DNA of 38,150 bases from Syntrophobacterales bacterium (GTDB lineage: Bacteria; Desulfobacterota; Syntrophorhabdia; Syntrophorhabdales; Syntrophorhabdaceae). Location: assembly GCA_031274925.1 (NCBI GenBank), contig JAISPL010000054.1, positions 1 through 38,150 of the forward strand. Direction: 5' to 3'. The notes under the pieces were generated by a model. That model had not been told where the DNA came from and searched no databases. It was given only the letters and a program-made list of their open reading frames with translations. Numbering within the stretch: the stretch's first letter is position 1; each line of letters starts with the position of its first letter. A program made the position numbers and the translations under genes. Below, one piece after another: positions 9,377 to 36,885 of this stretch.

Positions 9377-9396
9377 CCAATAATAAGGAGTCTCCG

Positions 9397-9885
9397 ATGA
9401 AACGTAAAGTAGCGGTATACCCCGGTTCTTTTGATCCCATCACAAACGGTCACCTCGACATCCTGAACAGAGGGCTTGAGCTCTTTGACAAGGTTATCGT
9501 GGCCGTGGCTCTCAACATTGAGAAAAAGGCGCTCTTCAGCGTTGAGGAAAGGATGGAATTGATAAGACTGTCCGTCAACCATAATGAAAATGTGCTTGTG
9601 GATACCTTCAACGGACTGCTGGTGAACTATGCGAAGAAGGTGAATGCCAGATTTGTGATCAGGGGGCTTAGAGCCATGAGCGACTTTGAGTACGAATTCC
9701 AGATGGCATCCATGAACAGAAACCTCAATAAAGATATGGACACCCTATTTATGATGACCAGTAAGGATTATTATTTTATCAGCTCCAGAACCATCAAGGA
9801 GGTCCACCAGTTCGGCGGATCTGTGAAGGGGCTTGTTCCGGAAATCGTGGAGCAGAAACTGAAAGAGAAGCTCGCTTTGCTATGA
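9397..9885 (+). CDS. coaD: Phosphopantetheine adenylyltransferase
   Basis: A 162-residue enzyme of coenzyme A synthesis that transfers AMP to 4'-phosphopantetheine to give dephospho-CoA. It starts YPGSFDPITNGHLDI with the nucleotidyltransferase HxGH-type motif (TNGHLD) and carries the ISSRTIKE motif near the C-terminus. The frame stays open upstream, but AAGGAG at 9385-9390 and the family start place the initiator at 9397. The stop overlaps the next gene (ATGA). coaBC, the preceding enzyme pair of the pathway, is five genes away in the same array. Confidence 0.96.
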   Translation: MKRKVAVYPGSFDPITNGHLDILNRGLELFDKVIVAVALNIEKKALFSVEERMELIRLSVNHNENVLVDTFNGLLVNYAKKVNARFVIRGLRAMSDFEYEFQMASMNRNLNKDMDTLFMMTSKDYYFISSRTIKEVHQFGGSVKGLVPEIVEQKLKEKLALL

Positions 9886-11171
9886 ATAGACCCGTGCTTT
9901 TTGCCGCGCTGGCTGCCGTATTCGTGTTTGCGGCTTTTTCTGTCCAGGCGGGCGATGTGTATACGGCGAGGGTGCAGGGCGTCATAAGCCCAGCGACCGC
10001 AGGATTCATATCTGAATCAATTGCCAAAAGTGAAGAGAAAGGCGCAGAGGGTCTTGTCATTCTCCTTGATACCCCCGGCGGTCTTGACACATCCATGAGA
10101 GATGTCGTCAAGGATATCATGACATCCAAGGTCCCGGTGATAGTCTATATCTATCCTCCCGGGGCGCGCGCCGCCTCGGCGGGGTGCGTTATTCTCCTTT
10201 CAGCCAATATCGCGGCCATGGCGCCTGGTACCAACGTGGGAGCAGCCCATCCGGTGAGCATAGGTAAAGCGGGCACGGAAGACAAGGTAATGATGCAGAA
10301 AATACTGAAAGATGCCGAGGCATACGTGAGGAGCATCGCAAGAAAGAGAGGGCGGAACGAGGAGTGGGCCGCGAAGGCCGTGACTGAGAGCGCCTCCATT
10401 CAGGCGTCAGAGGCCCTGAAACTGAACGTCATTGATGTGATATCGGGAAGCGTTGACGAACTGCTCAAGGCTATAGACGGAAAGGCTGTGGAGACGAGAA
10501 GCAGTGTGGTCACCCTGAAGCTGAAGGGAGCGAAAAGGGTTGACTTGGAAATGTCTTTCAAATACAGGCTCCTCGCTTTCATAAGTGATCCTAATGTTGC
10601 CTATATCCTCATGATGATAGGTATTTACGGGATACTTTTCGAGATCTTCAACCCGGGGGCTGTCTTCCCCGGGGTGATGGGGGGAATAGCCATACTCCTC
10701 GCCCTTTACGCTTTCCAGGTGATACCGATCAGTTTTGCCGGAGTCTTTCTCATACTCCTGGGCATCATATTCTTCATACTGGAATTAAAGATTATAAGCC
10801 ACGGCATATTGGGAGTTGCGGGTGTAATATCTATTGTGATAGGCTCTATCATGCTTATCGACCTGCCGTCAGGGGGCATACTCTCTATTTCATGGAAGTC
10901 GATCTTGGCGGTGGCCCTGCTCTCCACCCTGTTTGTTTTTGGGGCGCTGTCCTACGCGATCAAGGCTCAACTGGCAAAAGTGAAGACGGGGAAAGAGGGT
11001 CTTTCCGGAGAAGAAGGGACGGCAAAGACGGATATTTTTGAAACGGGGAGAGTCTTCCTGCGCGGCGAGCTATGGAATGCGACCAGTGAAGAGCCGATAA
11101 AGACAGGCGCGAAAATCATCGTTGTGGAAGTCAAAAATCTGACCCTGAAGGTCAGGAGAAAAGGGGGCTGA
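9882..11171 (+). CDS. NfeD-type membrane-bound serine protease (ClpP-like)
   Basis: A 429-residue protein with a signal peptide (cleavage probable after VQAG), a ClpP/crotonase-fold protease domain (DTPGG near 64, nucleophile Ser99 in AASAG, and a general-base Lys near 150 in RKRG), four or so hydrophobic segments (about 230-350) and a soluble C-terminal NfeD domain of OB-fold type. In characterised relatives the protease cleaves hydrophobic tails of the partner slipin; that partner is the very next gene, 1 nt away. A role in membrane quality control is an inference from the pair. Confidence 0.92.
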
Positions 11172-11172
11172 A

Positions 11173-11928
11173 ATGATCGGATTACCAGTATTGTTGTTCG
11201 TGATTGCAATCATCGTGTTCTTTCTCACGAGCGCGATCAGGATTCTTAACGAGTATGAGCGCGGGGTTATTTTCAGGCTTGGACGGGTCTTAGGCACCCC
11301 GAAGGGGCCTGGACTCATCATCCTTATCCCCATGATTGATAAGATGACAAAGGTAAGCCTTAGGACGGTGGTGCTTGATGTCCCTCCTCAGGACATCATA
11401 ACCAGGGACAATGTGTCCATAAAAGTGAATGCGGTCGTCTATTTCAGGGTAATGGATCCTTTGAAGGCGGTCATTGATGTGGAAAATTTCCTCTATGCCA
11501 CGAGCCAGCTCTCCCAGACGACGCTCAGGAGCGTTCTCGGACAGGCCGAGCTTGACGATCTCCTCTCTCACAGGGAGAAGATCAACGAGAGGCTCCAGGA
11601 AATCCTCGACACCCATACCGAGCCTTGGGGCATCAAGGTGTCGAATGTGGAAGTGAAGAACGTCGATCTTCCCGCAGAGATGCAGAGGGCGATTGCGCGT
11701 CAGGCGGAGGCGGAAAGAGAGAGAAGGGCAAAGGTGATAAGCGCGGAAGGGGAATACCAGGCATCTACAAGGCTGTCGGAGGCATCTGACATACTCTCCA
11801 GGAACCCCATGGCGCTTCAGCTCCGTTACCTCCAGACCCTTATCGAGATATCCACGGAGAAGAATTCCACAATAATCTTTCCTCTTCCCATTGACCTCAT
11901 TAAAGTTTTCACGGAGAAATTTAAATGA
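11173..11928 (+). CDS. Slipin / SPFH (band 7, stomatin-like) membrane protein
   Basis: A 251-residue protein with one N-terminal membrane helix followed by an SPFH domain ([13 protein letters not shown], then [17 protein letters not shown]) and a charged, probably coiled-coil stretch ([20 protein letters not shown]). The C-terminal hydrophobic tail ([10 protein letters not shown]) is the part cut by NfeD proteases in other organisms. Slipins oligomerise and scaffold membrane domains. It begins 1 nt after the NfeD gene, and its stop overlaps the next start (ATGA), so the three genes are coupled. Confidence 0.94.
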
Positions 11929-13124
11929 AGAAGTGGTGGATCCTGATACTTGCCATACTGATGTGCATAGGCTCCACCCATGCGCGGGCAGCGCAGAAAA
12001 AGCACATACTCCCCAAGCAATCTAAGCAATCGGGCAAAGGGGTGGCAGCAAAAAAAAGCGAAGAGCCTTTTAAGTCCTTCATCGTGGTGGAGTCAACCAC
12101 AGGCGCGGTCTTAGACGGTGAAAACGTCCATGCACGGCGGGCGCCTGCAAGTGTGACAAAGATTATGACGGCCCTGGTTGTCCTTGAAAAGGTTTCCAAA
12201 GGCGAGAACACGCTCGCGGACCAGATTACCGTGACGCCCGACGCGGCACGGATTGGAGGGAGCCAGGTCTACCTGGAGGCAGGCGAGGTCTTCACCCTTG
12301 AAGAAATGATGAAGGCGGTAATGGTGGCATCGGCAAACGACGCGGCATATGCGGTGGCGGAGCATGTTGCCGGCAGCGCGGACGCCTTTGTGGGACTCAT
12401 GAATGAAAAGGCCAAGGAACTCAATATGGCGGACACCGAGTTCCATTCGGCCCACGGTCTTCCTCCCTCAAAGGGACAGAAGGAAGACTTTACCTCCGCA
12501 AGCGACCTTGTCATCCTTGCCCGCGAAATCCTGAAATACCCGAAAATCATTGAATGGACATCCATAAAGAGCGAGGGCTTCAGGGACGGCAAGTTTATCA
12601 TGCATAATCACAATAAGCTTCTCACGAAGATGGCGGGCATAGACGGCCTGAAAACAGGGTTCTACCGGGAGACCGGATTTAATGTGGTAGCTACCGTGAA
12701 GAAAGGCGATTTACGGTTCATCGCCGTGGTAATGGGCAGCCCTTCGGCCCCGATCAGAGATAACGTGGCAATGGAGAAACTGAAGAAGGCGTTTGGCCAG
12801 CTCAGAATGTTGAGCATCGTGAAGAAAGGCGAGTTCGTGGATAAAGAGGTAATGCTCCTGGACGGAAAGCAAAGGAAGCTGAAAGGAGTGGCTAGCGCGA
12901 ACTTCCTCTACCCTGTTGCTGTCGATAAAAAAGGGACGATAAAGAAAGAGATAGTGATGGCCGACAAGATCAAGGGAGATGTGAAAGAGGGCCAGAAGAT
13001 TGGCGAAATGATCATCACCTTCGATAACCGGCAGGTGGGCAAAGTCGACGTAATTTCTCCCGTCCATGTACCCACTGCAAACCTTTTTACGAGATTTATC
13101 AGGAGATTGGGGCTTAATATCTAA
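11925..13124 (+). CDS. dacA: D-alanyl-D-alanine carboxypeptidase (DacA/PBP5 family)
   Basis: A 399-residue exported class of penicillin-binding protein that trims the terminal D-Ala of peptidoglycan stem peptides. A signal peptide (1-22) precedes the catalytic domain with SxxK (Ser76-Val-Thr-Lys79), SxN (Ser-Ala-Asn in VASAND) and KTG (LKTGF). The C-terminal third is the beta-rich PBP5 stalk domain (from about 285), although the terminal amphipathic anchor is not obvious. The start overlaps the slipin stop. The gene symbol is by family; other DacA-like paralogues may exist elsewhere. Confidence 0.92.
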
Positions 13125-13144
13125 AACGAGAGGATTTAAGGGTT

Positions 13145-14374
13145 ATGTTGAGAAATAAAGAGATCGTGGTGGGAATAACCGGCGGCATCGCAGCATACAA
13201 AACCGCCGAGTTGGTACGGTCATTTATAAAAAAAGGGGCGAACGTCCATGTGGTCATGACCAAAAACGCGATGGAGTTTATAACCCCTCTCACACTTCAG
13301 ACCCTTTCGGGTAATCCGGTGGTCCACAATATGTTTGAGCTCCTCACAGGTTCTAAAATCGGACATATTGCCCTGTCAGACATTGCCGATCAGGTGGTGA
13401 TCGTTCCCGCCACGGCGAATATTATCGGCAAGGTAGCAAACGGTATTGCCGACGACTTCCTTACCACCATGATAATGGCCATCACGGTGCCGGTCCTCTT
13501 TGTGCCCTCCATGAATACCAAGATGTGGGAAAACGCCGCTGTCCAGGAGAACATTCAGAAACTGAAGGACAGCGGATTCCAGTTCATTGAACCGGGAAGC
13601 GGGGACCTTGCCTGCGGCACCACGGGGAAAGGCAGGCTTCCGTCAATCGAAGAGATTATTGAGAGAATGGAAGATATTTTTACAGAGAAGGATCTCACAA
13701 ATGAGCACATTCTTATCACCGCAGGCCCTACAATGGAATACATTGATCCGGTGAGATGTATTACCAACAAGTCGTCGGGTAAGATGGGATACGCCATTGC
13801 GAAGATTGCAAAGAGAAGAGGCGCGGAGGTAACATTGATCACGGGAAAGACATATCTGTCTCCGCCGAGAACGGATATGTCCGTTATCGAAGTGGTCACC
13901 GCCATGGAGATGAGGAGCGCCGTGATTGAACATTACAAGCGGGCGACCATCATTATTAAAGCCGCTGCAGTGGCGGATTTCAAGTGCAGGACCGAAAGCT
14001 GCCAGAAGATAAAGAAGAAAGGCGACGCCAAATACATTGCCCTTGATTTGGAAAAGAATCCCGATATAATCAGCGAGCTTGGCCGGGTAAAAGGCGACCG
14101 GATCCTGGTCGGCTTTGCCGCAGAGACGGAGAATATGCTCGCCCACGCCCAAGATAAGTTGACGAAGAAGAACTTGGATCTCATTGTGGCGAATGACGTT
14201 TCCAAAGAAGGGATCGGGTTCGGATCGGATATGAATGAAGTCTCCATAATCGATAAGGCAGGAAACATTCGGCAGGTGCCCATGCTAAGCAAGGACGAGA
14301 TCGCCCACATTATCCTTGATGCCATAAAGAAGGTGATCAAAAAGAGAAAAAAGGTCAAGAAAGATCGGCTGTAA
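13145..14374 (+). CDS. coaBC: Bifunctional phosphopantothenoylcysteine decarboxylase / phosphopantothenate-cysteine ligase
   Basis: A 409-residue CoA-pathway fusion enzyme. The N-terminal CoaC half is a flavin decarboxylase (GITGGIAAYK, the histidine in IGHIALS, and PSMNTKMWENAAVQEN, the substrate clamp). The CoaB ligase half starts near 185 with ITAGPTMEYIDPVRCITNKSSG, contains KAAAVADF and ends with a Lys-rich tail. Both catalytic halves look complete. AGAGGA lies upstream of the ATG. It makes 4'-phosphopantetheine, the substrate of CoaD encoded 3.3 kb upstream. Confidence 0.96.
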   Translation: MLRNKEIVVGITGGIAAYKTAELVRSFIKKGANVHVVMTKNAMEFITPLTLQTLSGNPVVHNMFELLTGSKIGHIALSDIADQVVIVPATANIIGKVANGIADDFLTTMIMAITVPVLFVPSMNTKMWENAAVQENIQKLKDSGFQFIEPGSGDLACGTTGKGRLPSIEEIIERMEDIFTEKDLTNEHILITAGPTMEYIDPVRCITNKSSGKMGYAIAKIAKRRGAEVTLITGKTYLSPPRTDMSVIEVVTAMEMRSAVIEHYKRATIIIKAAAVADFKCRTESCQKIKKKGDAKYIALDLEKNPDIISELGRVKGDRILVGFAAETENMLAHAQDKLTKKNLDLIVANDVSKEGIGFGSDMNEVSIIDKAGNIRQVPMLSKDEIAHIILDAIKKVIKKRKKVKKDRL

Positions 14375-14444
14375 ATATTTCCCGGGGAACATTAGGACAG
14401 GATTGAAGCAAGAAGTGAATTCCAAAGAAACACACAGGGGATGA

Positions 14445-15773
14445 GTGGTGAAGATTCCGGCACAAGCGATGCTGATTATGTTGCTGGTCTCCTACATCCT
14501 TCCTCTGCACGCCGCCGATGAAGAAGATAAAATTGTAAGAGTCGTCGAAATGGCGAGCAAGGCGATCGTCAATATAAAAACAGAGGAATGGTCGAAAACC
14601 CCGGAAGAGAACAGAAAGCCGAGCATATTCCAGAGATTTTTGGGCGAAGAAAATGAGGCGGAGGCTTTTGAAAACCAGGGTTCCGGCGTGGTCCTTGACC
14701 CCAAAGGCATCATAGTCACGAACGAGCATTTGATATCGAAGGCCTTCAACATACGGGTCAAATTCATGAACGGTAAGGAGTACGAGGCATACGTGTTGGG
14801 AAGTGATCCCGAGTTCGACATTGCGCTCCTCAAGGTGACGGACAAGGTGGACTTTCCCTGTCTAAAGGTCACCAAACCGCATAACATAAGGGTAGGCCAG
14901 AAAGCGATAGTCATCGGCAACCCCTTCGGCCTGTCAAGCTCCATTTCGGCGGGGGTTGTGAGCGCTCTCGACAGGAATCTTAAGATTGATGGAAGAGTCT
15001 ATGCGAACCTCATTCAGACCGATGCGGCGATAAATCCGGGCAATAGCGGCGGGGCTCTTCTCGATATGGAGGGCAATCCCCTGGGGATCGTTACCGCCAT
15101 ATACGGCGAAGGCAAAGGCATCGGCTTTGCCATACCCATGGATGACGTAATGCGCATGCTGTCGGAGTTTCTAGAAAGCGGCATAAAAAGGCCTATATTC
15201 GGCGTTTTTACGGAAAAAAGGAGAGATGAGCGAGGGTCCTACTTTTACGTGGCGAAGGTCATCCCCGGCAGCCCGGCCGACAAGTACGGCGTAAAGCCGG
15301 GAGACAGGGTCATCGAACTGAACAGGAAAAAGATTAAAGAGGGTATGAAGCCACACAGCGTCCTAAGGAGCATGAAGGTCGGCAGGGTTGTCCAGTTCAA
15401 GATTGTGAGGAATTCAAAGCCCCTGTTTCTTAATATTGACGACAGTTATGTAGAAGGCTATCTCCCGCTCCCTGTGGACCAAAGCCTGTGCAATATGCGG
15501 GTAGCGGATATCAGAGGTTACCCAAAACTCAAGTTCAAACTCAAGGAAAAAGAGGGCGTGGTGGTAACTAAGATTTACAGCAAGAGCGCGGGGGACAGGT
15601 GCGGGCTCCTGCCGGGCGACGTGATCCTCAAAGTGAACAATAATGCGGTTTCCGGTACGAAAGATTTCGAATCTTTTATGGTGGAAGGTTTGAAAAGGAA
15701 TTATATTTTATATCAGGTAAAGAGGAACGAGGAAATCTTCTTTGCTCCGGTTAAGCTTGATACTCTGCTTTAG
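14445..15773 (+). CDS. HtrA/DegP-type periplasmic serine protease with two PDZ domains
   Basis: A 442-residue trypsin-fold protease. The N-terminal hydrophobic stretch ending LPLHAADE is a signal peptide. The triad is His95 (TNEHLIS), Asp125 (DPEFDIALLKV) and Ser201 (NPGNSGGALL). Two PDZ domains follow (about 245-320 and 355-435). Its role is expected to be degradation or chaperoning of misfolded envelope proteins. The start is GTG at 14445 (a second GTG is adjacent), with AGGGG just upstream. The second PDZ begins in an unusually divergent linker, otherwise the layout is standard. Confidence 0.93.
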   Translation: MVKIPAQAMLIMLLVSYILPLHAADEEDKIVRVVEMASKAIVNIKTEEWSKTPEENRKPSIFQRFLGEENEAEAFENQGSGVVLDPKGIIVTNEHLISKAFNIRVKFMNGKEYEAYVLGSDPEFDIALLKVTDKVDFPCLKVTKPHNIRVGQKAIVIGNPFGLSSSISAGVVSALDRNLKIDGRVYANLIQTDAAINPGNSGGALLDMEGNPLGIVTAIYGEGKGIGFAIPMDDVMRMLSEFLESGIKRPIFGVFTEKRRDERGSYFYVAKVIPGSPADKYGVKPGDRVIELNRKKIKEGMKPHSVLRSMKVGRVVQFKIVRNSKPLFLNIDDSYVEGYLPLPVDQSLCNMRVADIRGYPKLKFKLKEKEGVVVTKIYSKSAGDRCGLLPGDVILKVNNNAVSGTKDFESFMVEGLKRNYILYQVKRNEEIFFAPVKLDTLL

Positions 15774-18726: not shown

Positions 18727-20756
18727 CTACTTAGGGATACTGCGCATTTTAGTCGGCCCGTCTCCCAACTGACCGTTGCCATTCCCTCCCCAGGTCTTCA
18801 TCGTGCCATTATCTTTAAGGGCAAGAGAATGACTGCTTCCTGCGGTCAGAGCCGCAACATCGGATAGCTCAACCTGTACCGGAATAAGGCTGTTCTTAAT
18901 TGTACCGTCTCCCAACTGACCATTATTATTCCTTCCCCATGCCAATACATCTCCGTTATCTTCAACAGCGAGAGAGTGGTACCATCCGGCGGTAAGAGCC
19001 TTAGCGGTCAGATTCACAACAGGCGTTGGGATTAAGCGGTTAATCTTTGTACCGTCTCCCAACTGACCGAATTTATTCCTTCCCCAGGCAAGCGCCGTGC
19101 CATCCTCTTTGATAGCTAAAGAATGATCGCCTCCCGCGGCAATTGCAGTTACAGTCACACCGGATAATCCCTTAACTTGAGCGGGGGCAGTACGATTAGT
19201 CTTTGTACCATTACCTAACTGACCGCTAGAGTTCTTTCCCCAAGCCCATACAGTACCATTACTATCCAAGGCTAAAGAATGGTAGCTTCCCGCGGTAAGG
19301 TGGGCTACAGTTACATCGGATAGCCCCGGCACCTTAACGGGGGTGCGGCGACTGGTCTTTGTACCATCTCCAAGCTGACCGAAGCTGTTCTTTCCCCAGG
19401 CCCACACCATGCCGCCTTTGTCCAGCGCCAGGGAGTGATAGCCTCCCGCAGCAAGTTGAGCTGCGGTTGAGCCCAGATTTAAATCATCCACCAAGCGCCC
19501 TGCGCCGCCTTCCATCACTTTGACGGGGGTAGGACTCTGATAATAGCCTCGTTGCCCAACTCCCCGGCATAACCACTTCCCCACGCCCATACTGAGCCGT
19601 CATTTTTAACCGCGAGGGAATGATAGAATCCCCCGGCCAGGGCCGCTACATCGGTTAAATTACCCACACCGTCTTCATCCACCACCTTAACGGGGACATT
19701 TTTAGTAGAAGCAGTGGACCCATCTGTTCCATCGCCCACCTGACCGAAAAAATTCCCTCCCCAGGCAAGCACCGTGCCGTCATTTTTAACCGCAAAACAA
19801 TGATGGCCTCCTGCGGCAATGGCCTTAACATCGGTTAAATTACCCACACCGTCTTCACCTTTTACCTGTGCCGGTGCCGGGCTGTTATCGTTGGTCCCGT
19901 CTCCCAACTGACCGTTACCATTCCATCCCCACGCCCACACCGTACCGTCCTCTTTTTTAAGGGCGAGGGAATGATAACCTCCCGCGGCAATGGCCGCCAC
20001 ACCGGTTAAATTACCCAATACCTTAACGGGGGTATTTCTACTGGTATAGGTCCCATCGCCCAACTGACCATTATCATTATTTCCCCACGCCCACACCGTG
20101 CCGTCTCTTTTAAGGGCAAGAGAATAAACAGTTCCTGCGGCAATGGCCTTAACATCGGTTAAATTACCCACACCGCCTTCACCCTTCACTTTGACGGGGG
20201 TAGGGCTGTTATCAGTGGCCCCATTGCCCAGCTGACAGTAATTATTATATCCCCACGCCCATACCGAGCCGTCATTTTTAACCGCAAGGGAATGAGAGTA
20301 TCCCGCGGCAATGGCCTTAACATCGGTTAACCCCACCACCTTAACGGGGGTATTTCTATCAGTAGTGGTCCCATCTCCCAGCGAACCGACACTATTACCT
20401 CCCCAAGCGAACACTGTACCGTCATCTTTGATCGCAAGGGAATGAAAGCCTCCTGCAGCAATGGCCGTTACATTGGTTAAATTGCCCTTACCGCCCTCAC
20501 CCTTCACCTGCACGATAGCAGGGCCAAAAGCATCGGGGCCGCTCTTCCCATCACCCAACTGACCGACATTATTAGTTCCCCAACCCCACACCGTGCCGTC
20601 GTCTTTGAGGGCAAGAGAATGAGCGTATCCCCCAGCCACCATGGGCGCTGTGGTGAACTTTGCCGCAGATGCATAAGTCGCCATAAATGGCGTCATAGTG
20701 AGCATAAGCGCCGCTGAAACGAGTACGGCTAAGCACATGTTTCTGCTTTTCATCAT
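18727..20756 (-). pseudogene. Secreted RCC1-repeat protein interrupted by one frameshift
   Basis: A Sec signal peptide (MMKSRNMCLAVLVSAALML..., cleaving near YASA) is followed by twelve RCC1-type repeats of about 50-60 residues, each built on AGGxHSLALKxDGTVWAWGxN and GQLGDGT. AAGGAG lies 6 nt before the ATG at 20756. The frame breaks in repeat 7 near 19550, where adding one base restores LGN-GGYYQSPTPVKV and joins 6.5 repeats upstream to 5.5 downstream. The last repeat stops abruptly at RSIPK. RCC1 repeats form seven-bladed propellers; twelve would give one full and one partial propeller. The function is probably extracellular binding, but the partner is unknown. The single-base break may be a real mutation or an assembly error. 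Confidence 0.8.
18760..20640. repeat. Tandem DNA repeats underlying the RCC1 blades
   Basis: Units of about 150-180 bp share long near-identical stretches, for example the GTTAAATTACCCA block recurring near 19656, 19833, 20000, 20155 and, changed, 20317 and 20472. The similarity is higher at DNA level in the N-terminal half (19590-20640) than in the C-terminal half, suggesting recent expansion or gene conversion there. Confidence 0.75.
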
Positions 20757-20909
20757 GAAGATCTCCTTTTCCGGGAAGTGAACCCCGGACATTGTGTATT
20801 TTTCTGGTGGAACCCTTCTTGGGGAACACGGCTTCTTGCTTCTACTGTATATAGGGATAAAAGCGCAGCTGGAAACTGTTTTAGTACCCCCCCGTGCAAT
20901 TATAATCAC

Positions 20910-27934: not shown

Positions 27935-28030
27935 TGGCGGAAGTGCATGGGAATCGAACCCACCCACCAGCTCGTCACCGGTGCACTGGTTTTGAAGACC
28001 AGGAGGCCCACCAGGCGCCTCGGCACTTCC
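27935..28030 (-). tRNA. selC: Selenocysteine tRNA, tRNA-Sec(TCA)
   Basis: A 96-nt tRNA read on the minus strand. It has an 8-bp acceptor stem (GGAAGTGC with GCACTTCC), a long D stem, anticodon TCA (27995-27993) in the loop CTTCAAA, a very long variable arm, the T loop GTTCGATTCC and an encoded CCA. The long acceptor and extra arm together with TCA are diagnostic of tRNA-Sec; the layout matches E. coli selC. It shows that the organism decodes UGA as selenocysteine. selA, selB and selD are not in this window. Confidence 0.96.
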
Positions 28031-31655: not shown

Positions 31656-31698
31656 TACCAGGCGCAACTTGACTTTGCGCCGTACCAGCATTTATAAT
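31656..31698 (+). promoter_or_regulatory. Promoter with overlapping inverted and direct repeats, ahead of the surface-modification cassette
   Basis: TTGACT (31669-31674), an 18-nt spacer and TATAAT (31693-31698). A perfect inverted repeat GGCGCAA (31661-31667) / TTGCGCC (31675-31681) brackets the -35 box, and GTACCAG occurs as a direct repeat at 31656-31662 and 31682-31688. The arrangement looks like a repressor operator. Confidence 0.6.
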
Positions 31699-31755
31699 GT
31701 TGGGTTAGATTTACTTTGCTGGTTTGTGATTATTTGTGTAAGGGGGTATCTTAAG

Positions 31756-31908
31756 ATGTATCTTGATCCCGGTTTCGGCAGCATGGTAATACAGGCGCTG
31801 ATTGCTTCACTTGCAGCGGTTGCAACTATTTTCGGCATCTTCCGAACAAAAATCATGGCTTTTTTCAAAAAAGGTAAAAAATCCACCAAAGAAAAAACTG
31901 ATGGATAG
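31756..31908 (+). CDS. Small single-span membrane protein of the MYLDPG type
   Basis: A 50-residue protein. The ATG at 31756 follows a G-rich ribosome site and lies 58 nt past a good -10 box; an upstream reading would begin inside the -35 box. The sequence is MYLDPGFGSMVIQALIA, one hydrophobic helix, then a basic tail (KIMAFFKKGKKSTKEK). Short proteins beginning this way are, as far as I recall, found beside methyltransferase and phosphatase-superfamily genes in other anaerobes. The function is unknown; it may anchor or assemble the complex. Its end overlaps the next gene by 8 nt. Confidence 0.75.
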   Translation: MYLDPGFGSMVIQALIASLAAVATIFGIFRTKIMAFFKKGKKSTKEKTDG

Positions 31909-33292
31909 TGGCTCGGTTGCAAAGGCAGACCCCGGCTCATTCCGCGACCCGTCGGGAGTGGTATTTCTGCGCGGAGACAAGCTATATAGGCAGGTCAATC
32001 CATGTTACAGCGGACAATACAGTGCGTTGATGTCATCGGGGTTGTATAGTGAGCTGGTCAAACAAAAACTATTGATTCCTCATGATGAAGTTGACGTTCA
32101 GGGCAGTGATGCAAGCGCTTTCAAGGTGTTAGAGCCGGAGCGTGTGGCGTTGATTTCATATCCATATGAATGGTGCTTCGGGCAGTTAAAGGATGCAGCC
32201 CTCGCCACTCTGCGTATACATAGGCTGGCGCTTGAACGCGATATGATTCTCAAGGATGCTTCCGCCTACAATATACAGTTCGTGCGCGGTAACGCGATAC
32301 ACATTGATACGCTGTCTTTTGACTTCTACAAGGACGGTAAGCCTTGGGTTGCCTATGGACAGTTTTGCAGGCATTTTCTCGCGCCTCTGTTTTTGATGGC
32401 GTATACCGATGTCCGGTTGTCGCAGCTTCTGAGGGTATATATTGATGGCATTCCGCTTGATTTGGCGAGCAAGCTGCTAGGCAGAAAGGGTGGATTTGCC
32501 GCAAAAGCGCACATCCATTGGCATGCGAAATCAATCGCGAAGCATGGACGTGCGGGGCAATCGGCAGGGGCTTCATCACGGCAGGCGTTAATCAGCAAAT
32601 TCAAAATGACTGCCATGATTGATTCCCTTATCCGCATTGTAGAGAAATTACAGCTTCGCGGTGTGCAAACCGAATGGGGGGATTATTACACCCGAACCAA
32701 TTACACGGATTCGGCGGTGGACAGCAAGAAAGCGATCGTTGCGAAATATCTGGCAAAATTATTGCCGCTTGTAACATGGGATTTTGGCGCAAACGATGGC
32801 TCATATTCGCGCTTAGCCTGTTCGGGTGATGACGGCTTTGTCGTTGCGTTTGATATTGACCCTATAGCAGTAGAGCGCAACCATGCAGAGGTACGGCGCA
32901 CGAGGGAAAAAATGCTGCCGTTACTGCTGGATTTAACGAACCCCAGCCCCGCCATCGGTTTTGCTAATCGTGAGCGCGGCACACTTGATACACGGCAAAA
33001 GCCTGATTGTATCCTCATGCTTGCGGTGATCCATCATCTGGCAATTTCAAACAATCTACCGCTCGGTATGATTGCGCAGTGGCTGGCTAAATTATGCAAT
33101 AATCTGATTATTGAGTTTGTGCCAAAAGCCGATTCGCAAGTAAAGATACTGCTCACCACCCGGGACGATATATTCCCGGACTACATACAGCAAGGTTTTG
33201 AAGAGGCGTTCAGTGCTTATTTCAACGTGGTTGAGAAGCAGTCTGTTGCAGATAGTGAGCGGACGGTATATTTGATGGAGAAGATACGGTGA
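31901..33292 (+). CDS. Two-domain protein: kinase-like N-terminus and SAM-dependent methyltransferase C-terminus
   Basis: 463 residues from the ATG at 31901, which overlaps the end of the small protein. The C-terminal half is a class I methyltransferase: motif I DFGANDGSYSR (294-304), the acidic AFDIDP (Asp318), DLTNPSP and AVIHHLAISNN (375-385). It resembles NoeA-type methyltransferases. The N-terminal 200 residues contain LKDASAYNIQF (118-127) followed by IHIDTLSFDF (133-142), which mirrors the catalytic D...N and metal-binding D of the protein-kinase/aminoglycoside-kinase fold. Whether this part is active is unknown; a Gly-rich loop is not obvious. The GTGA overlap couples it to the next gene. 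It may modify a glycan or lipid-linked substrate. Confidence 0.8.
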   Translation: MDSGSVAKADPGSFRDPSGVVFLRGDKLYRQVNPCYSGQYSALMSSGLYSELVKQKLLIPHDEVDVQGSDASAFKVLEPERVALISYPYEWCFGQLKDAALATLRIHRLALERDMILKDASAYNIQFVRGNAIHIDTLSFDFYKDGKPWVAYGQFCRHFLAPLFLMAYTDVRLSQLLRVYIDGIPLDLASKLLGRKGGFAAKAHIHWHAKSIAKHGRAGQSAGASSRQALISKFKMTAMIDSLIRIVEKLQLRGVQTEWGDYYTRTNYTDSAVDSKKAIVAKYLAKLLPLVTWDFGANDGSYSRLACSGDDGFVVAFDIDPIAVERNHAEVRRTREKMLPLLLDLTNPSPAIGFANRERGTLDTRQKPDCILMLAVIHHLAISNNLPLGMIAQWLAKLCNNLIIEFVPKADSQVKILLTTRDDIFPDYIQQGFEEAFSAYFNVVEKQSVADSERTVYLMEKIR

Positions 33293-34974
33293 AAGATAAA
33301 CCAATAAATCAACTCGGCGGGAACATCCTGTTATGTTTCGCCGCTTTATTTATGCCAAATATCTTTTTATTTTTTCTTTTTAACAACAATAAGGTTATGA
33401 ACAATCTGCATTTTAGCCACTTTGTTGTTCTGGCTGTAGTTTTTTCAATTATCAGCGTTTGCATATTCCTGGTTTATCGAAAAATATCAAATAGCATCGA
33501 AGGCGCTTTTGTGACATTGTTGATATCTTGGATATTCTTCTGGCTATTTGAAGCGATTTTATCTATTGCAGTAAGGCGTTCAGCTTCACTGGGAAGGGTG
33601 ATATTGTTAGTATGCATGGCAGGGGGAATTGCAATCCTGCTTCGGATATTTCATCAATATCATTCTGCCATACAGAAATATCGAAGCGCTTTTTTAGTGC
33701 TTGCTACTACAATATGCGTTCTCTTTTCTTACAACTTTATTCCTGCACTACACTCCGAGGTTCTTATCGGTAAGGCTAATCCGCCACCTACTAAAAAGCC
33801 ATATAATATTAAAACAGAATTTGTCGTTGATCATTCATTGCCGAGTCCAGATATATACTGGTTTCACATGGATGAAATGGTCGGATTCCGTGCCGTTGAG
33901 AAATATTTTGGAGATGCGCAAGACAAGCTGAAAGCAGAGCTGATAAAGCGTGGCTTTGTCTTGAATGAAAGTGCGGAACTACGTGCAGGCTATACTCAAG
34001 TTGCGGTTCCGGCGTTATTGTCGCCAACCTTTTATGACAGTTATTTAAGATTGCAACTGGCAGAAGCAGCTCATTTATTGCGCAATTCACGACAACGCCA
34101 GTTGAATGAAAGATTTCGAGCAAGCGGTCTTATCCCGAAAGATGTATTTACAGTGTCAGGTGACATTGCTTCTGGTTTTGAAATGTTCCGGGCATTAAAA
34201 ATGAAAGACTACTCAACAATACTCATAAGTACAAATCTAGTTACAATTAATTGGGGATTGATTGATCGACTTTATCGCGCTAATGATGAATATCCGCTGT
34301 CAGTTCATTCTAATTCGGTTCGGGTTAATGTGTTGGAAGAAATCAACGACTTAAAGTATCTTCTAATGACCACAACACCCTTCTCTCTGGCTGATAATAT
34401 AATAACCAATTGGATCGAGCATCTCAAAAAAGATTGGCTTACCGTGCCGGCATATGAGGGGGTCGTTAATCAGTTAACCTGTCAAACGCTTGGAATTATC
34501 GAGGAAAGGCGTCTTTATAGAAGATTATACGATGCGCTTTCTGTTCCGTCTCCAAAAATAATTTATATGATGAATTTCCTTGCTCATAGGCCATATAATA
34601 GAGTCTATGAAACGGACAAACTGGAAAACCCTTATCCGGATAATTTTGATGCTGTTGATTTGTTATATTTGCCGCAGTATAAATACGCCGCTAAAGTGAT
34701 GCTCCTTGCGATAGACATGGTGTTAGAAAAAAATCCTGATGCGATTATTGTGCTGCAAGGTGATCACGGCATTCATCATCACCTTGTGCAGGCGTATATG
34801 GTAAATAAAGGATTTTCAGATAATCAGATTCTTTCCATGAACCATTCTGTAATTAGCGCCTTAAGAATACCGCCGCAATACGGCGGATTAGACAAGCCGG
34901 TAGACCCCTTGAACATATCTAGACTGTTGGTTAACCGCTTTGTAGGCCAAAACTATGAATTGCTGGACAAATAA
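33289..34974 (+). CDS. Membrane alkaline-phosphatase-superfamily (sulfatase/LTA-synthase-like) protein
   Basis: A 561-residue protein starting with GTG. Five hydrophobic helices (about 14-34, 43-63, 73-93, 102-121, 133-152) precede an extracytoplasmic catalytic domain. Metal and nucleophile positions of the superfamily can be matched: Asp195/Glu196 (FHMDEMVG), Thr236 (AGYTQVAVPALLSP), His433 (FLAHRPY), Asp492-His493 (QGDHGIHHH) and His519 (MNHSVISALRIP). Relatives transfer phosphoglycerol or phosphoethanolamine, or hydrolyse sulfate or phosphate esters on surface polymers. The gene is visibly AT-richer than those at 8-16 kb, suggesting transfer. It shares an A with the start of the next small gene (TAATG). 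Confidence 0.82.
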   Translation: MKDKPINQLGGNILLCFAALFMPNIFLFFLFNNNKVMNNLHFSHFVVLAVVFSIISVCIFLVYRKISNSIEGAFVTLLISWIFFWLFEAILSIAVRRSASLGRVILLVCMAGGIAILLRIFHQYHSAIQKYRSAFLVLATTICVLFSYNFIPALHSEVLIGKANPPPTKKPYNIKTEFVVDHSLPSPDIYWFHMDEMVGFRAVEKYFGDAQDKLKAELIKRGFVLNESAELRAGYTQVAVPALLSPTFYDSYLRLQLAEAAHLLRNSRQRQLNERFRASGLIPKDVFTVSGDIASGFEMFRALKMKDYSTILISTNLVTINWGLIDRLYRANDEYPLSVHSNSVRVNVLEEINDLKYLLMTTTPFSLADNIITNWIEHLKKDWLTVPAYEGVVNQLTCQTLGIIEERRLYRRLYDALSVPSPKIIYMMNFLAHRPYNRVYETDKLENPYPDNFDAVDLLYLPQYKYAAKVMLLAIDMVLEKNPDAIIVLQGDHGIHHHLVQAYMVNKGFSDNQILSMNHSVISALRIPPQYGGLDKPVDPLNISRLLVNRFVGQNYELLDK

Positions 34975-35153
34975 TGGTGATTGTTGCGCTGCTTATGCTG
35001 CTTGTACCCGGCTTGATTGCTGTGCATATTTACTGACACGAGCGTGAAATAGATAAAGCAGATTACAAGCATTTGGTTGCGATTATTTTGTTTACACATT
35101 CGCTTTTTCCTCCTCTTTGGCCAGCCTTTCCGGGCAGCCTGATCCTTCCATGA
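34974..35153 (+). pseudogene. Small membrane protein interrupted by an in-frame TGA
   Basis: The ATG overlaps the previous stop (TAATG). It reads MVIVALLMLLVPGLIAVHIY, then TGA at 35034-35036, then HEREIDKADYKHLVAIILF and on to a stop at 35151. Replacing the TGA by Trp gives a natural VPG...HIYW-HEREI hinge, so a TGG-to-TGA nonsense change is the simplest reading. The end (PPLWPAFPGSLILP) may be foreign sequence. A selenocysteine reading is possible in principle because tRNA-Sec is present, but no SECIS-like hairpin is apparent. Confidence 0.55.
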
Positions 35154-35157
35154 CCGT

Positions 35158-35617
35158 GTGTTCATGGAGCGATATTTAAGAGGTGGTAAACATGGATCAG
35201 ATAAATATGCGTTGTTTGTGAAAGTCGATGACAAATGGGCTGAAGGGGATAATAAAACCGCGTTCCTCATTTTCCGTAAACTGGCATTGGCGGGCGAATC
35301 ATCAGTTTATAATAACTTAGGTTTCTGCCCTGATGAAGGAATGGGTACCAGCAAGAATTTTAAGAAGACCATTTACTGGTACAAGTTGGCATTGCGCATT
35401 GAAAGGGACGTAGGCGCTTGTACAAATATATCAAGCATATGAATCACGAGGAAACCGCCGCCAGGCCATATGCTGGCTCTTAAAGGCTGTAGAAAAAGAA
35501 GATGGCGGCGCAACGTTGGACCTTGCAAAACTCTATCTGAAACGACCTGGAAAGAGATATAAAGATAAAGCCATATTACTTCTCGAGAAAGTTAGACAGA
35601 TGAATTACCCTTTATAG
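35158..35617 (+). pseudogene. Sel1-repeat (TPR-like) protein with a frameshift
   Basis: The first frame gives a Sel1-type series: KWAEGDNKTAFLIFRKLALAG, NNLGFCPDEGMGTSKNFK, then KTIYWYKLAL. Near 35425 the frame breaks; the continuation in another frame reads IYQAYESRGNRRQAICWLL, KAVEKEDGGATLDLAKLYL and ends KDKAILLLEKVRQMNYPL at 35617. Together they make a complete-looking small Sel1 protein of about 150 residues. Sel1 proteins usually mediate protein-protein contacts. A single-base change or assembly error would explain the break. Confidence 0.7.
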
Positions 35618-36267: not shown

Positions 36268-36885
36268 GTGGTGAGGATGCGCTTGCGGGCATGCGGGTTG
36301 ATGGGCAGATTCTACATAGACAAAAAATACTTTGCCAGGAAACAATCGGGAAACTGGGTAAGCTTCGAAACAAGCCCTGAACTCAAGAGGACTAAGAGCG
36401 ACATTTACGGAAAGTGTGTTCCGTGCATGACGAACCTGTATGAACAGCTCAAAGAAGGAAAAACAAAAATTGAGTTGGGGCCGGCGCATCAATGCTGGAA
36501 AGTGGTGGTACCCCTCAGGGGTATGGAAGAATGCATTCAATTCCTTTCCGAATTTGAGCGAGATTTTCTTGAAGACCTTGACGTGAAAGGACGATTTGGA
36601 TCAACAAGCGACCCCGCAAGGGACACAAAGGTGATTGTTTGCGGCGCAGAAAGTGAGACGAAACAGGATCGGTTATTCGTCAGGCTAAAGGCATGCGCGT
36701 CGTATATAAACCTTGAGACGCAGGTTTTTTACCACAGAGGATGTGCGGAACTTTACCATGAGCTTTTTTTTGGAGATTGGCGGAAATGGAATGAGACTGA
36801 ATCAGTCAAAAATCAGGCAATGGTCGGAGTTGTGCTCGAAAAAATAAGAAAAGCTCTTTTTTGGGTCAATGGGGGACGTCCATAA
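36268..36885 (+). CDS. Hypothetical protein of unknown family
   Basis: About 205 residues from a GTG at 36268; ATG codons at 36277 and 36301 are alternative starts, and MGRFYIDKKYF at 36301 looks the most natural. No ribosome site decides. The protein is soluble, mixed alpha/beta by appearance, with scattered Cys (KCVPC near 48-52, later single Cys) but no recognised motif. The C-terminal 70 residues are helical (AELYHELFFGDWRKW, VLEKIRKALFW). The neighbours (YheU-like, greA) do not suggest a role. Confidence 0.65.
   Translation: MVRMRLRACGLMGRFYIDKKYFARKQSGNWVSFETSPELKRTKSDIYGKCVPCMTNLYEQLKEGKTKIELGPAHQCWKVVVPLRGMEECIQFLSEFERDFLEDLDVKGRFGSTSDPARDTKVIVCGAESETKQDRLFVRLKACASYINLETQVFYHRGCAELYHELFFGDWRKWNETESVKNQAMVGVVLEKIRKALFWVNGGRP

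Follow-up and report, generated by a model that had tools for sequence, protein, structure and literature searches.

What does the short, tightly packed gene set towards the end of a 38,150-nucleotide (nt) stretch of the Syntrophobacterales bacterium contig JAISPL010000054.1 do, and how many genes does it hold? An earlier reading of this stretch (the window, meaning its full length) described a four-gene cassette. We find an intact operon of three genes, of the NoeA–NoeB type: a small membrane protein with a YLDPG-like motif, a NoeA-like kinase-like/methyltransferase and a NoeB-like membrane enzyme of the alkaline-phosphatase (AP) superfamily. NoeA and NoeB have been known for thirty years as host-range proteins of the alfalfa symbiont Sinorhizobium meliloti, and our literature search found no biochemical activity assigned to either. 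On balance we favour, at somewhat better than even odds, a complete and acquired module that modifies a cell-envelope glycan by combining cytosolic phosphorylation/methylation, membrane coupling and periplasmic phospho-transfer, where the substrate and the chemistry are ones that we infer.

The open reading frames (ORFs) and their overlaps, re-derived from the sequence, agree with the first description (Table 1): the small gene runs 8 nt into the NoeA-like gene, which in turn shares 4 nt (GTGA) with the AP gene. The stop of the small gene and the start of NoeA likewise overlap by 8 nt in the nearest relative, an Oscillospiraceae locus (L003) whose taxonomy comes from its record title and whose termite-gut source was read from the isolate name. 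The proposal of one promoter ahead of the genes also holds, as a strong sigma-70-like site is found 57 nt ahead of the first start codon and only two sites with at least 11 of 12 consensus bases occur in the whole window, both strands scanned. The supposed fourth gene, a second small membrane protein, had to be dropped. The frame that follows TAATG reaches a TGA after 20 codons, no homologue of this ORF or of its read-through stands next to the module in any of the related loci examined, and its weak genome matches fall in unrelated frames.

Table 1. Features of the operon and its surroundings, in window coordinates
Feature	Position	Strand	Basis
Small single-helix membrane protein, MYLDPGFGS...Q, 50 amino acids	31756-31908	+	ORF reading, family alignment
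NoeA-like kinase-like/methyltransferase, 463 amino acids	31901-33292	+	ORF reading; NoeA similarity, alignment, model
NoeB-like AP-superfamily membrane enzyme, 561 amino acids	33289-34974	+	ORF reading; NoeB profile match, model
Sigma-70-like promoter TTGACT-18-TATAAT, probable single operon promoter	31669-31698	+	11/12 consensus bases
20-codon ORF, not counted as gene	34974-35036	+	Stops at TGA; no homologues beside module
IS3-OrfA-like insertion sequence (IS) remnant, frame-shifted	about 31.28-31.54 kb	-	Read by eye
Weak Sel1 fragment	35158-35439		E 3.8e-4, below Pfam cut-off
tRNA-Sec gene	27935-28030	-	Rfam E 2e-12 and ARAGORN

The central protein is NoeA-like, as first proposed, with 34% identity to S. 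meliloti NoeA over 97% of the query and mostly about 50% identity to homologues from many phyla. Its N-terminal, kinase-like part keeps R30, D119, N124 and D136 invariant in 62 aligned sequences, in agreement with the residues described for the Lani_1194 kinase-like family (PMC9758233). In the structure model (mean predicted local distance difference test, pLDDT, 94.5), residues about 255-463 form a class I S-adenosylmethionine methyltransferase that aligns with many methyltransferases at Z-scores of 16-18 (about 165-190 residues). One of these many tied matches is MePCE, which methylates an RNA phosphate (Z 17.6, 3.4 Å, 190 aligned residues). Structures of phosphoethanolamine and phosphatidylethanolamine N-methyltransferases also figure in the methyltransferase matches. 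WbdD appears twice, in the sequence list (E 0.0055) and in the Foldseek list. The Foldseek and VIA-align lists are filled by the methyltransferase part, and nothing in them speaks against a kinase fold.

The third protein has the LtaS/EptA-like layout that had been predicted for it. Its model shows five long N-terminal helices followed by a catalytic domain; all 31 homologues keep D195, T236, H433 and D492, and H493 is present in the window protein. The best structural matches are YejM, EptC, MCR, EptA and LtaS (Z about 17-20; catalytic domain 3.3-4.3 Å over 244-285 residues), with YejM and EptC/MCR ranking first. These enzymes share with it the five helices and the exported AP domain, and EptA and LtaS the Thr nucleophile and metal ligands, yet identity is about 10%. 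Thr as the nucleophile, together with the metal ligands, speaks for phospho-ester chemistry and against a formylglycine sulfatase. No Pfam or NCBIfam family, EptA/MCR included, matches the window protein. Profile comparison puts S. meliloti NoeB in this family as well (hhalign probability 98.4, E 6e-15); a single-sequence tblastn search of plasmids returned no AP homologue even though NoeB is there, the family being too divergent for such a search. In four other loci (L034, L035, L050 and L070) the AP protein carries DEG instead of DHG in the metal-ligand motif, a His-to-Glu change at a usual metal ligand in this subgroup.

For the small protein, no Pfam or NCBIfam model matches the window copy, which is 64% identical to that of L003, and a literature search on its motif found no paper; we regard it as a member of an unannotated protein family. 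An alignment of 55 sequences gives the core Y-(L/I)-D-P-G-(T/S)-G-S-x-x-x-Q, which leads into a hydrophobic helix with a basic tail after it. Q13 never varies, S9 is kept in 54 and G8 in 53 sequences, while the conservation of Y2 and D4 was partly imposed by the search pattern. An N-terminal extension is present in 46 of the 55, with Ala just before the Tyr in 43 of these and Ala three positions before it in 39. This is the classical pattern of signal peptidase I, and the first residue of the mature protein should accordingly be Tyr, outside the membrane. In most loci, then, the YLDPGTGS..Q motif starts exactly at the predicted signal-peptidase site, a register that is apparently new. The nine remaining sequences, the window's among them, have no signal peptide and start at or near the Tyr, as in the Bacillota relatives.

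The original prediction looked to recurrence in other genomes and a fixed gene order, and both are found. Searching 84,980 species genomes with the NoeA-like query gave 72 loci, whose neighbours were counted with profiles on all reading frames, window and S. meliloti included. Of the 72 testable loci, spread over many phyla, 68 have the small protein immediately upstream of NoeA; in 40 of 62 an AP gene follows NoeA at no more than 3 kb, and 36 of 60 have all three genes. In L004, L037, L059 and L074 the AP gene is placed just upstream instead. AP-superfamily ORFs are concentrated near NoeA (53 of 259 ORFs within 2.5 kb, 1 of 199 at more than 4 kb). The same set occurs in three family relatives (G015, G018 and G020), and a reverse search in a sample of Acidobacteriota found NoeA adjacent to the small protein in 27 of the 30 loci examined. 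One locus has another order, with NoeA, small protein and AP enzyme in turn (L207, 52-3163).

Divergence of the small protein is correlated with that of NoeA (Mantel r 0.28, 0 of 2000 permutations), and divergence of the AP enzyme is not significantly so (r 0.14, 380 of 2000). The stable core therefore appears to be the small protein plus NoeA, with an AP partner that is exchangeable or optional. Such constancy in both search directions, the near-invariance of the motif and the correlated divergence would also suit a different and rather unlikely arrangement, in which the small protein is itself the substrate: NoeA would modify its cytosolic tail, or the AP enzyme its YLDPGTGS N-terminus, and the whole would be a regulatory or signalling unit.

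The company that the small protein keeps where NoeA is missing is more what one would expect of a structural partner than of a substrate of NoeA. A small-protein profile run on 247 genomes of the window's phylum gave nine places without NoeA, seven of which touch an AP-superfamily gene; as some of the genomes are related, the independent cases are fewer than nine. In L117, L122 and L124 the small protein is an N-terminal fusion to a Type I phosphodiesterase AP enzyme; in L116, L118 and L121 it adjoins Sulfatase and/or Phosphodiest genes; in L119 it is fused to a CDP-glycerol (cytidine diphosphate-glycerol) transferase-like protein with an AP gene alongside; and L120 (with an arylsulfotransferase) and L123 are sulfotransferase operons. 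In two genomes outside this set, a second small protein is paired with an AP gene alone (L166, Daviesbacteria) and a copy lies between an O-antigen ligase gene and a phosphoenolpyruvate (PEP) mutase/cytidylyltransferase gene (L168, Elusimicrobia). Taken together, small-protein loci other than L003 contain genes for sulfotransferase, adenosine phosphosulfate (APS) kinase, O-antigen ligase, CDP-glycerol transferase-like proteins and phosphonate metabolism, which we count in favour of envelope-glycan modification. Judged by gene content, what these loci share is the chemistry of phosphate, sulfate or phosphonate esters, and the pairing with AP and sulfotransfer systems outside NoeA is apparently new. 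The idea that the small proteins act as membrane adaptors thus survives in part: the fusions and pairings back an AP partnership for the first, and the second is not a gene.

The fused proteins lie at L117:6-2189, L122:6434-8614 and L124:1185-3314 (minus strand), each with an N-terminal YIDPGTG/YIGPGAG membrane segment. A variant small protein, with AYVGPGLG or AYIGPGLG, stands beside Sulfotransfer_3 genes in three separate genomes (L120, L123 and L171), and arylsulfotransferase genes are also near it in L120 and L171.

We tentatively propose, at somewhat worse than even odds, that the YLDPG protein represents a widespread unannotated family of tiny inner-membrane partners of envelope phospho- and sulfo-transfer enzymes. 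The periplasmic Tyr-(Leu/Ile)-Asp-Pro-Gly-Thr-Gly-Ser exposed by signal peptidase would recruit, gate or activate AP-superfamily (and perhaps also sulfotransferase-linked) enzymes, and the basic tail would dock a cytosolic enzyme such as NoeA. If this is true, the ORF between S. meliloti nodL and noeA is an unrecognised host-range gene.

That unnamed ORF belongs to the small protein family, and the nodL operon on pSymA carries, like the window, a small YLDPGTGS protein, NoeA and NoeB in this order. The window differs in having no nodL and a small protein without signal peptide; its AP enzyme is very divergent from NoeB, and organism and context are different. A 2022 study described the kinase-methyltransferase family of Lani_1194 in the Lani_1192-1195 region of Legionella anisa, where the AP-fold Lani_1195 accompanies it in 38% of 816 neighbourhoods and Lani_1193 in 65%, and proposed a host-targeted or envelope action in Legionella (PMC9758233). 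From the gene order, Lani_1193 is likely to be the small protein, which the main text of that paper does not state; nor does that text mention the YLDPG motif, its register with the signal peptide or any pairing without NoeA. The conserved neighbourhood of the kinase-methyltransferase is thus prior knowledge and the module known but uncharacterised, so the original view that the set has no assigned function was nearly right, save that the NoeA/NoeB host-range proteins and the kinase-methyltransferase with its neighbours had been described (PMC9758233). The present comparison makes NoeA and NoeB part of a three-gene module that recurs across phyla and has a small membrane protein as its constant partner; relatives of this partner pair elsewhere with phosphodiesterases, sulfatases and sulfotransferase operons. 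An old symbiosis question becomes testable: one can ask which glycan, in the envelope or secreted, is the target, and whether the enzyme is under the control of the small protein.

A functional parallel for NoeA is WbdD of E. coli O9a, which also joins a kinase and a methyltransferase in one chain and acts on a lipid-linked glycan. We know of no AP-type partner for WbdD. It phosphorylates and then methylates the glycan end, and its chain runs from methyltransferase to kinase to a C-terminal coiled coil (PMC3482155), whereas in NoeA-like proteins the kinase-like part precedes the methyltransferase. Under the glycan-modifying scheme, the kinase-like domain of the cytosolic NoeA-like protein would phosphorylate a sugar or lipid-linked sugar, and the methyltransferase domain would then methylate the phosphorylated product, much as WbdD does. 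A methyl-phosphate product, suggested by analogy with WbdD (PMC3482155) plus a weak fold and profile kinship, is less certain and on our own estimate clearly short of even odds. The small protein would span the inner membrane, its Y-L-D-P-G N-terminus exposed on the outer face and its basic tail on the cytosolic face, and would couple the cytosolic enzyme to the membrane enzyme. The five-helix AP enzyme would form a covalent Thr-phosphate intermediate in the periplasm and transfer or trim a phospho-group on the exported glycan. In this way a surface or secreted glycan would acquire a different charge or end-group, which has been proposed for the Nod factors of S. meliloti.

The earlier suggestion that a surface polymer or lipid-linked glycan is modified fits the L003 copy, which lies inside a polysaccharide cluster with a Wzx-type gene (PF01943), glycosyltransferases, methyltransferases and an epimerase. 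Several observations pull the other way. The window copy lies between cysM and decayed DNA, not in a glycan cluster, and no consistent glycan theme was found near most NoeA loci, nor a glycan neighbourhood conserved at all of them, the commonest Pfam family accounting for only 3 of 111 flanking ORFs. The AP gene is not beside NoeA in about a third of loci, and its divergence does not track that of NoeA. A structure search with the full-length NoeA-like model did not confirm the kinase fold, and the likeness to WbdD and MePCE holds at the general methyltransferase level.

Part of this evidence would also suit a membrane lipid head group as the target, with NoeA making a methylated phospho-compound that the AP enzyme transfers, like EptA/YejM-type lipid enzymes. 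The top ranks of YejM and EptC/MCR for the AP model, the ethanolamine-type N-methyltransferases among the NoeA matches and the position of the module outside a consistent glycan cluster in most genomes all lean this way. Set against them are the polysaccharide cluster around the closest relative and the link of nodL-noeA-noeB to an oligosaccharide signal (PMC9758233, PMC9048898), and we rate the lipid target as improbable, a shade below the substrate role of the small protein. In L003, three tandem AP-superfamily genes follow one NoeA (9382-14500), which suggests diversification of the AP partner.

How did the module reach this genome? In a NoeA tree (quick search; Shimodaira–Hasegawa-like approximate likelihood ratio support, SH-aLRT), the window groups with L003 (97) and with two other Bacillota (98) and not with its family relatives. 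The neighbouring cysM, which lies 1.3 kb upstream, shares 88-90% identity with its own genus and is hence native; the gene at 36268 shares 61% with a genus mate. The Bacillota grouping together with the native cysM makes horizontal acquisition by a Desulfobacterota-type genome probable, in a direction that we infer; these flanking identities also make contig misbinning an unlikely source of the Bacillota signal. The module is absent from both genus mates and most family relatives, which fits acquisition. The notion of a mobile module is therefore upheld as far as a probable horizontal origin goes, but none of the three genes is a mobility gene and only the IS3-like remnant lies outside.

That remnant and the Sel1 fragment do place decayed DNA on both sides, as first noted, and together with the absence from most family relatives they could point to a decaying or accidental cluster of IS-assembled remnants without common function. 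We consider this highly improbable: the three ORFs are intact with their catalytic residues kept, the order is conserved across phyla, and the proportions of synonymous (pS) and nonsynonymous (pN) differences from L003 (pS 0.65/pN 0.17 for the small gene; pS 0.78/pN 0.17 for the NoeA-like gene; synonymous differences near saturation in both) show strong purifying selection on both genes. Nor is the cassette AT-richer as a whole. Guanine–cytosine (GC) content is indeed low in the small gene (40.5%) and the AP gene (39.3%), but the methyltransferase gene (49.3%) sits at the window mean (49.0%). NoeA exceeds the AP gene in GC by 0.10, a gap at the upper end of what 30 other pairs show (mean 0.034, standard deviation 0.044). 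As GC differs between the genes, a single AT-rich island was rejected.

The window also holds a tRNA-Sec gene, so the host can probably insert selenocysteine and other in-frame TGA codons deserve care. Selenocysteine read-through at the TGA of the 20-codon ORF is not supported, because the bases that follow fold no better than shuffles (z -0.93). Elsewhere in the window, two adjoining ORFs at 18727-20909 (minus strand) encode long arrays of RCC1 repeats (PF00415, E 3e-77 and 2e-65). In a bacterial genome these are eukaryote-like beta-propellers, and the pair is possibly one broken gene.

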